Below are positions 29,342 through 53,136 of a DNA stretch of 53,904 nt, piece by piece (within the stretch, counting starts at the first letter, position 1; each line of letters opens with the position of its first letter). The position numbers and the translations under genes were made by a program. Under the pieces are notes generated by a model that saw only the letters and a list, made by a program, of their open reading frames with translations, was not told where the DNA came from and made no database searches. Source of the DNA: Saprospiraceae bacterium (GTDB taxonomy: Bacteria; Bacteroidota; Bacteroidia; Chitinophagales; Saprospiraceae); the NCBI GenBank assembly GCA_022841505.1, contig JALHRK010000003.1, positions 1 to 53,904 on the forward strand. Reading direction: 5' to 3'.

Positions 29342-30316
29342 TTAAGCAACTAAGTGTACCAAACGACTGGCTTCCAGATGTTTGATCCTGCCATCTGCAT
29401 GCATATCCACATTCGATACCAGCCGGTAAGAGCCTGGCATCAGGTTCTCTAAGCGCACTGGCATGGTTATTCCCCCTGTTTCAGCAACAAAACCCTGTTG
29501 CTCTGCCAGGAGGATATTATCCCCTGAGTCCAGCGACCGTGCATACACTTTTGCCATAAAAGTTGCCTCGCCTGCTGCTCCCGGTTCAGCTAAATCAATA
29601 TGTATTTCCAGCGCAGTGCCGCCTGGGAACAGATTATCCCCGATGTTGTGGCCTTCTGTTGTTGTGATCGTGAGGTCTTTTGTTTGAGGAGGCAGCATCG
29701 CTAAAAGAGGCTGATGCTGTTTTTTGGCGGGTGGCGGCGCAGCAAACCGGGTAACGAAACGCTCGATCGCTCCGGTATCAATGCCCTTAAAAGTAGCCTT
29801 GTCGCCCGTAACCGGATATTCAATAACGCCCAGCATGGGTTCACCCTGCCCCCTGTGTTGCCACTCAAGGCTAAACCGGAAGCGGGAGGGCTGATGGGCA
29901 GGCTCCGGCTTGGAGGCAACCGGCGCTTGCTTAGGCGCCAGAACGGGCGTAGTTCCTATAGCCACACCGGCAAGCAGGCTGCGCTGCATCTGATCAATCG
30001 CGGCATCCATTTCTGCTTCGTCTGCAAAATCCCGGCTACGGGCAATTTCCAGTTTATTGGCTGCGCGAATGATGAAATAGGGACAATCGCCTTCGAGGCA
30101 GCGTTCTACCCGCTTCGCATTCTTTTCCACCGACGAAATGCCGCCATTCCGGCTCCGGGCATCTTTATAGCCCTGGCTATACAACAAAGCCTGCCCGTTT
30201 TCATCGTTGAAATGAAAATAGTGCAGGTGATCTTTTTCATTTTTGAAGGTTTCAAATTCCGATTTTCCACCGGTCGAAACCCGTTCCAGGTGGTACCTGT
30301 CTTTTTGGGGGGTCAT
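29342..30316 (-). CDS. YegP (DUF1508)-domain protein with a C-terminal beta-sandwich-like region
   Basis: A 324-residue protein. Its N-terminus carries two YegP-type units. The first is FHFNDENGQALLYSQGYKDA, then RNGGISSVEKNAKRVE. The second and more divergent unit is YFIIRAANKLEIARSRDFADEAEMDAAI. A Pro/Ala-rich linker (about 125-145) leads to a C-terminal region of beta-strands (GTALEIHIDLAEPG, FMAKVYARSLDSGDNILLAEQ, MPVRLENLMPGSYRLVSNVD). That region resembles in style, not clearly in sequence, the strands of the two downstream-numbered paralogues. Without a signal peptide it is probably cytoplasmic. The leader before its ATG contains the same GCGCCTG-T-tract element as both paralogues, suggesting shared regulation. 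Function unknown. Confidence 0.75.
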   Translation of the reverse strand: MTPQKDRYHLERVSTGGKSEFETFKNEKDHLHYFHFNDENGQALLYSQGYKDARSRNGGISSVEKNAKRVERCLEGDCPYFIIRAANKLEIARSRDFADEAEMDAAIDQMQRSLLAGVAIGTTPVLAPKQAPVASKPEPAHQPSRFRFSLEWQHRGQGEPMLGVIEYPVTGDKATFKGIDTGAIERFVTRFAAPPPAKKQHQPLLAMLPPQTKDLTITTTEGHNIGDNLFPGGTALEIHIDLAEPGAAGEATFMAKVYARSLDSGDNILLAEQQGFVAETGGITMPVRLENLMPGSYRLVSNVDMHADGRIKHLEASRLVHLVA

Positions 30317-49462: not shown

Positions 49463-49502
49463 CTTGGGTTGAGGTTAGGAAAGGTTTTTTTTAAAACCAA
49501 AC

Positions 49503-49534
49503 TTGCTTCCCAAAACTAAAAACCACTACCTTTG
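49503..49534 (+). promoter_or_regulatory. Bacteroidota-type promoter for ileS
   Basis: TACCTTTG at 49527-49534 matches the Bacteroidota -7 consensus TAnnTTTG exactly. ACTTGC around 49503-49505 provides a -33-like TTG at about 21 bp spacing. Transcription would begin near 49540, just ahead of the leader peptide, as the attenuator requires. Confidence 0.5.
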
Positions 49535-49558
49535 TTTCCATTCGTATAAAATCTTAAA

Positions 49559-49691
49559 AGATTGCGATGAACGTTTCCTTCACCATAATCAACAGCATTA
49601 TTATTCCCGGGTTGCCGCGCAATCTGTGAGCCGATGTTGTTGTTGAAACACTGAAAAAGCTCCGGCAGATTGCGATCTGCCGGAGCTTTTT
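49559..49691 (+). promoter_or_regulatory. Transcription attenuator of ileS (leader with alternative hairpins)
   Basis: Three segments carry matching words. Segment 1, AGATTGCG at 49559-49566, and segment 3, CAGATTGCG at 49666-49674, can each pair with segment 2, CGCAATCTG at 49618-49626. Segment 3 overlaps the 5' arm and loop of the terminator at 49654-49691. If the ribosome stalls at the Ile codons (49585-49605), segment 2 is free to pair with segment 3 and block the terminator. If it reads on to the stop codon at 49627, it covers segment 2 and the terminator forms. Without translation, 1:2 pairing also favours termination. This is the classical amino-acid leader-peptide logic applied to isoleucyl-tRNA synthetase. 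Confidence 0.8.
49567..49629 (+). CDS. ileS leader peptide, isoleucine-rich
   Basis: A 20-residue open frame, MNVSFTIINSIIIPGLPRNL, with ATG at 49567 and TGA at 49627-49629. It contains five Ile codons (ATA ATC ... ATT ATT ATT) within seven codons. The frame ends exactly where pairing segment 2 ends, and it lies between a promoter-like sequence and a strong terminator in front of ileS. The peptide itself is not expected to have a function; its translation senses charged tRNA-Ile. Confidence 0.8.
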   Translation: MNVSFTIINSIIIPGLPRNL

Positions 49692-49695
49692 CTTT
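49654..49695 (+). terminator. Intrinsic terminator in the ileS leader
   Basis: AAAAAGCTCCGGCAGAT at 49654-49670 is the perfect reverse complement of 49675-49691, with a TGCG tetraloop. The 17-bp stem is followed by the T-rich run TTTTTCTTTT. This is the strongest intrinsic terminator seen in the window and lies about 45 bp before the ileS start codon. Confidence 0.9.
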
Positions 49696-49737
49696 TACAA
49701 AAAATTATCTTTGCGGGTCTTTGAAAAAAAACCACCG

Positions 49738-52700
49738 ATGTACAACGAGTTTAAGAGCCTGAACCTTCAGGAAATTGACAAAGAAATGCTGGCCTTTTGG
49801 GAAGCGCAGGACATTTTTAACAAAAGCGTGGAACAACGCCCGACCAACAACGCGTGGGTCTTTTACGAAGGGCCGCCTTCCGCCAACGGCAAGCCTGGCA
49901 TCCACCACGTCATGGCCCGCGCCATCAAAGACATTTTTTGTCGTTACCAAACCCTGAAAGGCAAGCGGGTGGAGCGCAAAGGCGGCTGGGATACGCACGG
50001 CCTGCCCATTGAACTGAGCGTGGAAAAGGAACTCGGCATCACCAAAGAAGACATCGGCAAGACCATTTCAGTAGACGAATACAACCAGAAGTGCCGGGAA
50101 ACCGTCATGCGCTACAAAAACGAGTGGGACGACATCACCCGCCGCATGGGCTATTGGGTGGATTTGGACAACCCCTACATCACTTATGAAAACGACTACA
50201 TCGAAACCGTGTGGTGGTTGCTGAAACGCCTGTACGACAAGGGGTTGCTGTACAAAGGTTATACCATCCAGCCTTATTCGCCGGCAGCGGGCACGGGGCT
50301 GAGTTCGCATGAGCTGAACCAGCCAGGGGCGTATAGAGAGGTGACCGACACGACGGTGGTGGCGATGTTTAAGGTCATGAAAGATGAAAAATCAGCTTCC
50401 TTTTTCGATACAGAAGACGAAGATGTGCGCATCCTGGCCTGGACGACAACGCCGTGGACTTTGCCTTCCAATACGGCGCTGACGGTGGGGCCGAAAATTG
50501 ATTATGTCAAAATCAAAACCCTCAATCCCTATACCCACGAGCCGGTCAGCGTGGTGCTGGCCGATGTGCTGGTCGGAAACTGGTTCGCATCAGACCCGGA
50601 AAAACAAAAAAACAAGCCGGCCATCCTCGAAAAAAGTAGTCCGTTTAAAGGCGCTGCATTAGAAGGCGTGCGCTTTGAGCAATTGCTGCCTTACGGCAAT
50701 CCCATCGAAGAATTGAATGGCCATACCGACGCTTTTCGCGTGGTGGTGGGCGATTTTGTGACGACAGAAGACGGCACCGGCGTGGTACACACCGCTCCTT
50801 CTTTTGGCGCCGATGACATGAAAGCCGCGCGTGCCAACGGCATCGGCGCGCTGACACTGGTGGACAAACAAGGCAAATTCAAAGACTCTGTCGGCGAATT
50901 TTCCAACCGCTACGTCAAAAACTACAAAGACGATCCCGACTACGTGAGCGTGGACGTAGACATCGCCGTAAAACTCAAGCAGGAAGGCAAGGCGTTGAAC
51001 GTACAAAAATACGTCCACAACTACCCCCACTGCTGGCGCACCGACAAACCGGTGCTTTATTACCCGCTCGATAGTTGGTTCATCAAAGCCAGCTCCCTTA
51101 AAGACCGCATGTTCGAACTGAACCAAACCATCAACTGGAAACCCGCTAGCACAGGCGAAGGGCGCTTTGGCAAATGGCTTGAAAACTTGCAGGACTGGAA
51201 CCTGAGCCGCAGCCGTTACTGGGGCATTGGGTTGCCGATCTGGCGCACAGCCAATGGCGATCAGGAGATTTGTGTTGGCTCACTTGGCGAACTACAAGCG
51301 CTTACGACCGATGCGAATGATCGCATCAATACCCGCGCCGTTCAGGAAATCCTGTCACAGCAGGAAATTGACGCCATCATTGCCAGCTATCATTTGAGCC
51401 TGCAACCAGATTTTGATTTGCATAGACCTTATATTGATCAAATTGTGCTGCTCAGCCCGGATGGCAAACCGATGTACCGGGAAGCAGACCTCATTGACGT
51501 TTGGTTCGACTCCGGTTCTATGCCCTATGCGCAGTGGGGACTGGATTTGGCGAAACTCAAAGCAGGCGACGACCGCCCATTCAAAGCGCCTTTCGATAAT
51601 ATGTATCCCGCCGACTTCATCGCAGAAGGCGTTGACCAAACCCGTGGCTGGTTTTATACCCTGCACGCCATCGCCGTTATGGCTTTCGACAGCGTTTCGT
51701 TTAAAAATGTGGTCTCCAATGGTCTGGTTTTGGATAAAAACGGCCAGAAGATGTCGAAACGCCTCGGCAACGCAGCGGATCCGTTCGAGACGATTGCCAA
51801 ATACGGCGCCGACGCCACCCGCTGGTACATGATTTCCAATGCGGCTCCCTGGGACAACCTGAAATTCGACGTCGAAGGGATTGCAGAAGTGCAGCGGAAG
51901 TTTTTCGGCACGCTGTTCAATACCTACAACTTCTTCGCCCTCTACGCCAATGTGGATGGTTGGAAAATGGACGAGTTCAACGTCATGCCTTACGACCAGC
52001 GCACCGAACTCGACCGCTGGATCATCTCCAAACTCTACAGCCTCGTGGCGGATTACCATGCGGCGATGGACGACTACGAGCCACACCGCGCCTGCCGTTT
52101 GGTGGAAGATTTTGTGGATGCACATTTGTCGAACTGGTACGTGCGCCTTGGTCGCCGACGTTTCTGGCGCGGGGAGATGAGCAACGATAAAGAGGCTGCT
52201 TATCAGACCTTGTTCGAGTGTCTGATGGTGGTTGGACAACTTTCCGCCGCCGTTGCGCCATTTTTCAGCGACTGGCTCTACCGCAATATGACTGCACCCA
52301 TCCGGGACGTTGCGCAGCAAAAAAACACGCCCCTGCGCCACGAAAGCGTGCACCTGACCAACTTGATACAACCGGAGGCCTCGAAGATTGATAAAGCATT
52401 AGAAAAACGCATGGACTACGCCCAGCGCATCTGTTCGCTGGCGTTCAGCATCCGCAAGGCGAACGGGCTTCGGGTGCGGTTGCCGCTGCAAAAACTGCTG
52501 TTGCCGGTGCTCGACGAAAGCTTCATCAAAGAAGTGGACGGCGTGAAAGATTTGATTCTGAGCGAAATCAACGTGAAGGAAATCGAATACATCACCGATG
52601 CAGGCGGGTTGCTGAAAAAACAGGCAAAAGCCAATTTCAAAACCCTCGGCGCCAAACTCGGCAAGGACATGAAAGCTGCCGCCGAGCGCATCGCTGTTTT

Positions 52701-53136
52701 TGGCAACGAGGAAATCAATGCCCTCGAAAAAGCTGGCAGCATGCCTATGGACATCAACGGCACGGTTTACGACCTCACGCCTGCCGACCTCATCGTCACA
52801 ACGGAAGACCTGCCTGGTTGGAAAGTCGCTACGGATGGACCACTCACGGTGGCGTTAGATGTGACCTTGACGCCGGCACTGGAAGCAGAGGGCATCGCCC
52901 GCGACCTCGTGAACCGCATCCAGAACTTGCGCAAGGAGAAAAATTTCAACGTGACCGACCGCATCAATGTGCGCATTGAATGGCGTCAGCAATTGGAGCT
53001 TACCGTGGAGCAATTCCGGGAATACATCAAGGCAGAGGTACTGGCCGACTCGCTCATTATGGCCTCGGAAGTTGAAGGCGATCTGGTGGAATTGGGGGAT
53101 GAACTGAGTTTGAAAATTGAGGTCAGTTTGAATTGA
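49738..53136 (+). CDS. ileS: Isoleucyl-tRNA synthetase
   Basis: A 1132-residue class I aminoacyl-tRNA synthetase that charges tRNA-Ile. The ATG at 49738 is chosen; a TTG at 49711 is in frame but overlaps the leader. The HIGH-type signature is GKPGIHH (about 51-57) after VFYEGPPSAN, and the KMSKS-type loop is KMSKRLGN at about 671. The editing domain includes ILAWTTTPWTLPSNTAL and GTGVVHTAPSFGADD. GWDTHGLPIE, WFDSGSMPYAQWG and GVDQTRGWFYTLH are typical of IleRS. Length and motifs fit the long, eukaryote-like IleRS clade common in Bacteroidota, some members of which are less sensitive to mupirocin. It is preceded by an Ile-specific attenuator. Confidence 0.97.
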   Translation: MYNEFKSLNLQEIDKEMLAFWEAQDIFNKSVEQRPTNNAWVFYEGPPSANGKPGIHHVMARAIKDIFCRYQTLKGKRVERKGGWDTHGLPIELSVEKELGITKEDIGKTISVDEYNQKCRETVMRYKNEWDDITRRMGYWVDLDNPYITYENDYIETVWWLLKRLYDKGLLYKGYTIQPYSPAAGTGLSSHELNQPGAYREVTDTTVVAMFKVMKDEKSASFFDTEDEDVRILAWTTTPWTLPSNTALTVGPKIDYVKIKTLNPYTHEPVSVVLADVLVGNWFASDPEKQKNKPAILEKSSPFKGAALEGVRFEQLLPYGNPIEELNGHTDAFRVVVGDFVTTEDGTGVVHTAPSFGADDMKAARANGIGALTLVDKQGKFKDSVGEFSNRYVKNYKDDPDYVSVDVDIAVKLKQEGKALNVQKYVHNYPHCWRTDKPVLYYPLDSWFIKASSLKDRMFELNQTINWKPASTGEGRFGKWLENLQDWNLSRSRYWGIGLPIWRTANGDQEICVGSLGELQALTTDANDRINTRAVQEILSQQEIDAIIASYHLSLQPDFDLHRPYIDQIVLLSPDGKPMYREADLIDVWFDSGSMPYAQWGLDLAKLKAGDDRPFKAPFDNMYPADFIAEGVDQTRGWFYTLHAIAVMAFDSVSFKNVVSNGLVLDKNGQKMSKRLGNAADPFETIAKYGADATRWYMISNAAPWDNLKFDVEGIAEVQRKFFGTLFNTYNFFALYANVDGWKMDEFNVMPYDQRTELDRWIISKLYSLVADYHAAMDDYEPHRACRLVEDFVDAHLSNWYVRLGRRRFWRGEMSNDKEAAYQTLFECLMVVGQLSAAVAPFFSDWLYRNMTAPIRDVAQQKNTPLRHESVHLTNLIQPEASKIDKALEKRMDYAQRICSLAFSIRKANGLRVRLPLQKLLLPVLDESFIKEVDGVKDLILSEINVKEIEYITDAGGLLKKQAKANFKTLGAKLGKDMKAAAERIAVFGNEEINALEKAGSMPMDINGTVYDLTPADLIVTTEDLPGWKVATDGPLTVALDVTLTPALEAEGIARDLVNRIQNLRKEKNFNVTDRINVRIEWRQQLELTVEQFREYIKAEVLADSLIMASEVEGDLVELGDELSLKIEVSLN

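Follow-up and report, generated by a model that had tools for sequence, protein, structure and literature searches.

In the 53,904-nucleotide (nt) stretch of a Saprospiraceae bacterium analysed here (contig JALHRK010000003.1 of assembly GCA_022841505.1, positions 1 to 53,904; hereafter the window), the gene ileS for isoleucine--tRNA ligase is preceded by a short leader which is very probably a ribosome-mediated transcription attenuator backed by a bypass promoter. Sequence comparison among relatives establishes the features on which this interpretation is built: an upstream and a bypass promoter recognised by their motifs, a short open reading frame (ORF) with a run of isoleucine (Ile) codons, found also under a scan rule open to valine (Val) and leucine (Leu), an intrinsic terminator between leader and gene, an exclusive antiterminator kept by covariation and, in silico and with an assumed footprint, opposite effects of a stalled and a terminating ribosome in 51 of 52 units. 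Judging from the sequences, roughly half of the Saprospiraceae sampled carry this switch, often just before a second promoter that would bypass it.

The mechanism that we propose would operate as follows. A polymerase starting at the upstream promoter (P1) would make a leader RNA with a 20-codon ORF carrying the Ile run. When charged Ile-tRNA is plentiful, the ribosome would reach the stop codon and cover the segment around it (segment 2), the terminator would form and transcription would end before ileS. When charged Ile-tRNA is short, the ribosome would stall on the Ile run and cover segment 1, leaving segment 2 free to pair with the 5' arm of the terminator; the terminator could then not form, and readthrough into ileS would provide more of the enzyme that charges Ile-tRNA. 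In the absence of a ribosome, upstream RNA would hold segment 2 in many units and termination would be favoured. The second promoter (P2), beyond the terminator, would maintain a basal level of the presumably essential IleS regardless of the leader. From this architecture we infer that both promoters are active, that transcription continues through the leader into ileS and that the switch responds to the charging of Ile-tRNA.

The elements at the window locus are listed in Table 1. The original prediction, made from the letters of this DNA alone, had described a TAnnTTTG promoter match, a 20-codon frame with five Ile codons within seven, a repeated word with its complement placed between the two copies and a perfect 17-bp terminator with a T-run ahead of ileS, all of which were recovered. 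The Ile residues occupy codons 7, 8, 11, 12 and 13 of the leader, AGATTGCG is present at 49559-49566 and 49667-49674 with CGCAATCT at 49618-49625, and the terminator hairpin (49653-49692) reaches 18 bp if its outer G-C pair is counted. This hairpin was not listed by a generic terminator scan of the window and was listed by dedicated scans for T-tailed hairpins. The leader RNA (49540-49738) folds to -64.7 kcal/mol, compared with -40.4 kcal/mol (standard deviation 4.1) for shuffled sequences, i.e. 6 standard deviations lower, a value reached by none of 200 shuffles. The downstream product scores 947 bits against TIGR00392 (cut-off 621). A scan of both strands of the window for a run of any amino acid followed by a hairpin gave seven matches, the only Ile match being the ileS leader; among the six others, one was inspected, a Val-run ORF at 29643, and was discarded as antisense to a long ORF.

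Table 1. Elements of the ileS leader in the window, related leaders before ilvD, and genes inserted between terminator and ileS in relatives (L numbers are loci)
Feature	Position or locus	Strand	Description or basis
Promoter P1, TTG and TACCTTTG	49503-49505 and 49527-49534	+	-33/-7 boxes, Bacteroidota type
Leader peptide ORF	49567-49629	+	MNVSFTIINSIIIPGLPRNL and stop; 20 codons, five Ile codons within seven
Ile codon run IINSIII (codons 7-13)	49585-49605	+	Putative sensor and segment 1; own-versus-swapped pairing
Segment 2, antiterminator 5' strand	49618-49633	+	CGCAATCTGTGAGCCG; last leader codons, stop codon and following bases
Segment 3, terminator 5' arm and loop	49653-49674	+	3' part CAGATTGCG (49666-49674) shared with the antiterminator
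Segment 4, terminator 3' arm, then T-run	49675-49692	+	Covariation
Promoter P2, -7 box TATCTTTG	49706-49713	+	Motif; would bypass the attenuator
ileS, isoleucine--tRNA ligase	49738-53136	+	1132 aa, ATG at 49738; TIGR00392
ilvD leaders	L223, L224, L225, L229, L231, L235, L239, L241-L244, L246		Upstream of ilvD; Ile/Val-rich ORF and terminator
Inserted gene pair	L015		Matches PADLOC candidate system PDC-M41A/B; second gene a DUF5131 protein
Inserted gene	L020		Mrr-type nuclease
Inserted gene	L118		Protein with Pfam Abi_C domain, no PADLOC match
Inserted gene	L022		DUF922 protein
Inserted genes	L016, L017		No family

The comparison drew on two sets of IleS loci, 80 taken from a named genome collection and those of 100 Saprospiraceae genomes, in 96 of which ileS was matched. 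A region upstream of ileS was scored as a match if it contained a short ORF in which four or more of nine codons specify Ile and, no further than 90 nt beyond it, a T-tailed hairpin. The 170 regions yielded 60 sense matches, in 57 regions, against 3 antisense ones, which indicates that the arrangement of leader and terminator occurs more often than by chance. Removal of two false regions (L056, L063) and three repeats (L097, L098, L110) left 52 distinct units. The two false regions and L070, all from Chitinophagaceae, correspond to out-of-frame readings of an apparently conserved upstream gene, and the match at L058 lies inside ileS. Among the named loci, 17 of 80 were matched, two of them falsely, and the 15 true units all belong to the 29 loci of Saprospiraceae and their kin. 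In the Saprospiraceae set the scan matched 39 of 89 regions, a few of them deviant (L107, L112, L135, L160); with five further genomes that were read and the window itself, the unit is present in 45 of the 96 genomes in which ileS was matched. For G016, one of these five, the unit lies at a contig edge and its position before ileS is deduced, and two genomes with partial ileS matches, of which the upstream regions were not read (G049, G055), are counted among the absences. By eye, apparent attenuator remnants were seen before ileS in the leaderless loci L121, L095 and L162; these, together with L130 and L125, show remnants or variants (a terminator or a CAATCTGTGA-like segment) in which the Ile run is weak or gone.

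Segment 2, which comprises the last codons of the ORF and the surroundings of its stop codon, is complementary to the 5' arm of the terminator. Over the 52 units, pairing of segment 2 with the terminator arm of the same unit has a mean of -17.5 kcal/mol, compared with about -13.1 kcal/mol for random re-pairings, none of 20,000 being as good. The same holds for the 31 units whose arm lacks CAGATT (own -17.7 versus swapped -12.8 kcal/mol; 0 of 20,000). Pairs were counted in an alignment (A1) of 38 of the 52 units, 14 having been omitted beforehand, including the deviant ones named above. The antiterminator is paired in 82.7% of its cells, compared with 71.4% in shuffles and at most 44.7% in slid versions; the structure used for these counts was taken from the window, to the disadvantage of the slid versions. 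Changes on both sides were found in 8 of its 9 pairs, and none of 500 shuffles reaches the observed value on four of five measures. For the terminator, 94.7% of cells are paired and 11 of 17 pairs have changes on both sides. Both helices share columns 116-120 of the alignment and are therefore mutually exclusive. Of the 1:2, 2:3 and 3:4 alternatives in the original prediction, 2:3 and 3:4 are borne out by covariation and segment 1 has to be placed elsewhere; the Ile codons and the complementarity of segments, for which a comparison of relatives had been proposed, are conserved and covarying there. Examples of covariation visible by eye are L028, L020, L115, L163, L166 and L171.

Segment 1 had been assigned to the copy of AGATTGCG that precedes the leader ATG. 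Among the 52 units, this word stands before the ATG in only two, that of the window and that of its congener L014. Pairing between segment 2 and the 25 nt ahead of the ATG of the same unit is scarcely stronger than after swapping (-8.2 versus -7.6 kcal/mol; 305 of 10,000 permutations were as low), and this assignment was given up. The Ile run appears to take the role of segment 1: with its own downstream stretch it reaches -9.3, compared with -6.8 for those of other units (0 of 20,000 permutations). The effect of the ribosome was modelled by folding the RNA without the 3' arm of the terminator and with a ribosome assumed to mask the RNA as far as 12 nt beyond the start of its A-site codon. On average over the 52 units, upstream RNA holds 14.5 terminator-arm bases when the ribosome is stalled on Ile, 3.9 when it stands at the stop codon and 9.7 without ribosome (14.5, 3.4 and 6.2 for the window). 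In 51 of 52 units the stalled value is above that for the stop codon, and in 45 it is above the ribosome-free value; with segment 2 shuffled, the stalled value falls to 8.6, compared with 14.6 observed, the observed value being higher in 52 of 52. Stalled and terminating ribosomes are thus predicted, in silico, to select opposite structures.

The Ile-rich stretches of the ileS leaders contain almost no Val or Leu. When the best 8-codon window of each ileS leader is taken, 290 of the 416 residues from the 52 units are Ile, with 1 Val and 1 Leu. Leaders with an Ile-rich ORF and a terminator were also found in Saprospiraceae at 12 of 30 loci with an ilvD domain (3 antisense), where the best 8-codon windows contain 58 Ile, 23 Val and 2 Leu among 96 residues. 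The ileS scan required Ile and the ilvD scan accepted Ile, Val or Leu; the ileS regions were therefore rescanned under the ilvD rule, which gave 32 distinct leaders. Among their 256 residues 194 are Ile and 4 are Leu, and Val remains outside the eight commonest residues; antisense matches occurred in 3 regions, and no leader was added to those of the Ile scan. A similar scan of pheS loci, with three phenylalanines in eight codons, gave 0 of 30 in sense and 2 in antisense. Ile-only leaders of ileS beside Ile/Val leaders of ilvD provide a natural test of specificity. The Ile codons of the 52 leaders (194 ATT, 67 ATA and 45 ATC) vary in third position and keep isoleucine. The rarer codon ATA represents 67 of these 306 codons, compared with 1 of 61 in the window ileS, and may sharpen the stall. 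Outside the Ile run, the peptide sequence varies among the 52 units.

Both promoters are recognised by boxes of the -33/-7 consensus of Bacteroidota. For P1, 27 of 45 units have a TAnnTTTG box in the 110 nt that precede the leader ATG (2.3 expected). TTG precedes the TA by exactly 23 nt for 17 of 28 boxes, and by 24 nt in the window. TTG at 17-25 nt upstream accompanies 20 of 28 P1 boxes (3.2 expected) and 16 of 35 P2 boxes (6.4 expected), the -33 box of P2 being, by motif, weaker than that of P1. The P2 box, absent from the original prediction, lies between the terminator and ileS; 35 of 52 units have TAnnTTTG within 80 nt after the hairpin (2.9 expected), compared with 0 of 12 ilvD units within 80 nt after their terminator (0.5 expected). 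It starts 13 nt beyond the hairpin in the window and at most 20 nt from it in 28 of 52 units; an exact P2 box is absent from L028. Among the 16 units with a gap of 80-250 nt between hairpin and ileS, P2 lies within 20 nt in 8, further down in 4 and is missing in 4. When TTG is present at 17-26 nt upstream of P2 (17 units), it falls inside the hairpin in 16. After other strong terminators, TAnnTTTG within 35 nt was found in 4 of 73 cases and, for ileS units under the strict rule, in 3 of 8, a small contrast. A box within 120 nt of ileS is kept in 38 of 49 leaderless Saprospiraceae regions, so that P2 looks like the older ileS promoter, beside which the attenuated P1 unit may act as a booster.

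This proximity of P2 and its retention in leaderless regions would also suit a simpler organisation, in which the terminator ends a separate short transcript or that of an upstream gene, ileS is transcribed from P2 only and the Ile ORF does not regulate it. We regard this as improbable, since a plain terminator needs no antiterminator and the antiterminator is conserved and covarying, since the Ile content of the leaders fits the downstream gene, unlike that of the ilvD leaders and also under one scan rule, and since many units have a P1 box of their own. The location of P2 past the terminator rather suggests that ileS is probably only partly under attenuation: of the originally proposed attenuator controlling ileS, the attenuator itself is supported by the comparison and the control appears partial.

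The distribution of the element was further explored with an RNA model. In the genome of the window it gave one strong full-length match. Over the 100 Saprospiraceae genomes, the matches listed at E <= 1e-5 are mostly located at ileS or on the reverse strand of the ileS hairpin, and a further one lies at the edge of a contig, the ileS of that genome standing at the start of a different contig. Among the matches listed, two are away from ileS, G033:C33 (L280) and G067:C15 (L281). L281 has no Ile ORF; L280 has an Ile-rich GTG-start frame, VEITCTIIIIVPIKKQNRNISHI, followed by no fitting long forward ORF, and was read as a chance match. No Ile ORF was found in the weaker matches L282, L283 and L290 that were read. 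At E 0.1, at least 84 of the 100 genomes were matched, many matches being plain terminators or the antisense of the ileS hairpin. These results bear on another possibility, that the terminated leader of about 150 nt, having its own promoter box and terminator, acts mainly in trans as a small RNA or encodes a small protein. It appears highly improbable: neither of the two listed matches off ileS resembles a copy of the leader, the peptide varies outside the Ile run and the antiterminator would be left unexplained. In 395 genomes of the class, the model gave six matches at 1e-5 in addition to that of the window's genome. Three of them (L214, L216, L218) resemble plain terminators, two from other Bacteroidia (L213, L217) are Ile leaders before genes read from their translations as ilvE and ilvD, and L215 has Ile-rich ORFs with the downstream gene beyond the locus. 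No ileS unit was found outside Saprospiraceae among these 395 genomes, a result which says little on the range of the element since five other members of the family in this sample were also unmatched.

Leader-peptide attenuators are classical for amino-acid operons and for pheST in Proteobacteria. The Saprospiraceae unit shares with them a leader ORF with cognate codons, the 1:2, 2:3 and 3:4 alternatives and an intrinsic terminator before the gene, and differs by its occurrence in Bacteroidota, its position on ileS, a second promoter box abutting the terminator and the lack of Rfam membership. In Firmicutes, ileS is controlled by T-boxes, which act on the same gene and respond to the same presumed signal, uncharged tRNA-Ile, but sense the tRNA directly, without leader peptide. 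A T-box, or another RNA binding a tRNA or a metabolite without leader peptide, is scarcely conceivable at the window locus, even if T-box control of ileS is also described in Actinobacteria (PMC1262725): no Rfam family reached its threshold in the window, and a permissive search (to E 10) of 49480-49760 returned no T-box, its best match being His_leader (RF00514), a leader-peptide attenuator, below cut-off. The window scores 37.8 bits against His_leader (cut-off 49) and 25.1 against Thr_leader (cut-off 55).

The attenuator reading itself has precedents. In excerpts of PMC4117421, an "ileS leader CDS" of Caulobacter crescentus (CCNA_03934) is named and used as a negative control; as a short ORF before ileS it resembles the present leader, a likeness drawn from its name. 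The same mechanism was inferred, in the same phylum, upstream of amino-acid operons of Flavobacterium psychrophilum (PMC9723704), in that case before biosynthetic operons and in a main text where the word ileS is absent. From what these sources give, an ileS leader ORF and attenuation in Bacteroidota are not new in themselves, and Lopatovskaya et al. 2010, as cited in PMC4833913, may cover related ground. The suggestion that the element may be undescribed therefore holds for the combination: in the open-licence PMC literature, partly consulted as excerpts, no ileS attenuator was found in Bacteroidota. What is new is the gene, the phylum, the family-wide covariation and the conserved bypass promoter, the principle being that of classical attenuation. 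The locus suggests that classical attenuation acts on an aminoacyl-tRNA synthetase gene in Bacteroidota, a phylum for which our literature searches yielded little about the control of amino-acid genes by RNA, and the covariation is sufficiently strong for direct testing. The bypass promoter moreover suggests how a shut-off switch can fit a gene that presumably cannot be shut off.

Several observations weigh against the attenuator reading or limit its reach. With P2 in place, attenuation need not dominate the expression of ileS, and in six units one or two unrelated genes stand between terminator and ileS. The swap and shuffle statistics ignore the relatedness of the units, and individual units depart from the overall trend: the shuffle z-score is below -2 in 41 of 52 units and not in the 11 others (+0.7 in L016), and for L019, L143 and L156 the terminator arm of the unit itself comes no higher than 35th when compared with 51 swaps. 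The number of antiterminator pairs with changes on both sides is reached by 5 of 500 shuffles. In the folding model, 7 of 52 units keep 7 or more arm bases paired with upstream RNA even when the ribosome stands at the stop codon, and the contrast between stalled ribosome and stop codon results partly from masking more RNA. Finally, no unit was detected in 51 of the 96 Saprospiraceae genomes with an ileS match, part of which may be missing data as some loci are cut short upstream (L021, L034). On an IleS tree of 58 rows made by a quick method, a minimum of 16 changes of the presence label is needed, 10 of them forced by well-supported branches (mean of 19.7 for shuffled labels; as low in 29 of 500), which points to a dispensable and weakly clustered switch. 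The leader may thus have been lost patchily within Saprospiraceae.

Among the six units with inserted genes (Table 1), L015, L016, L017 and L022 fall into one small clade of the IleS tree, and the inserted genes are defence-like at three of the six loci. A speculative and rather doubtful extension of the attenuator reading would be that the attenuator and its abutting bypass promoter, a constitutive one whose -33 box, where present, lies within the terminator hairpin, constitute a conserved Ile-charging booster module, and that the inserted defence-type genes may be induced when Ile-tRNA charging falls, e.g. during phage infection.

Other observations concern neighbouring subjects. One of the weaker matches of the RNA model, L289, is a cysteine leader: at 1424-1743 it carries tandem leader ORFs with cysteine runs, MYSLQHTTALKNTHTCVCCCCCNMNP and MNIQSTTFCCCCCCCMIYRIPCEVD, each with a terminator, before a nitrite/sulfite reductase gene, and is probably a double cysteine attenuator. 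The window IleS scores 729 and 725 bits against the models of the mupirocin-resistant MupB and MupA enzymes, for which the exception cut-offs of 1900 are far higher, and may belong to a longer type of IleS. By eye, the IleS of L034 and L035 show a lysine-rich N-terminal extension.

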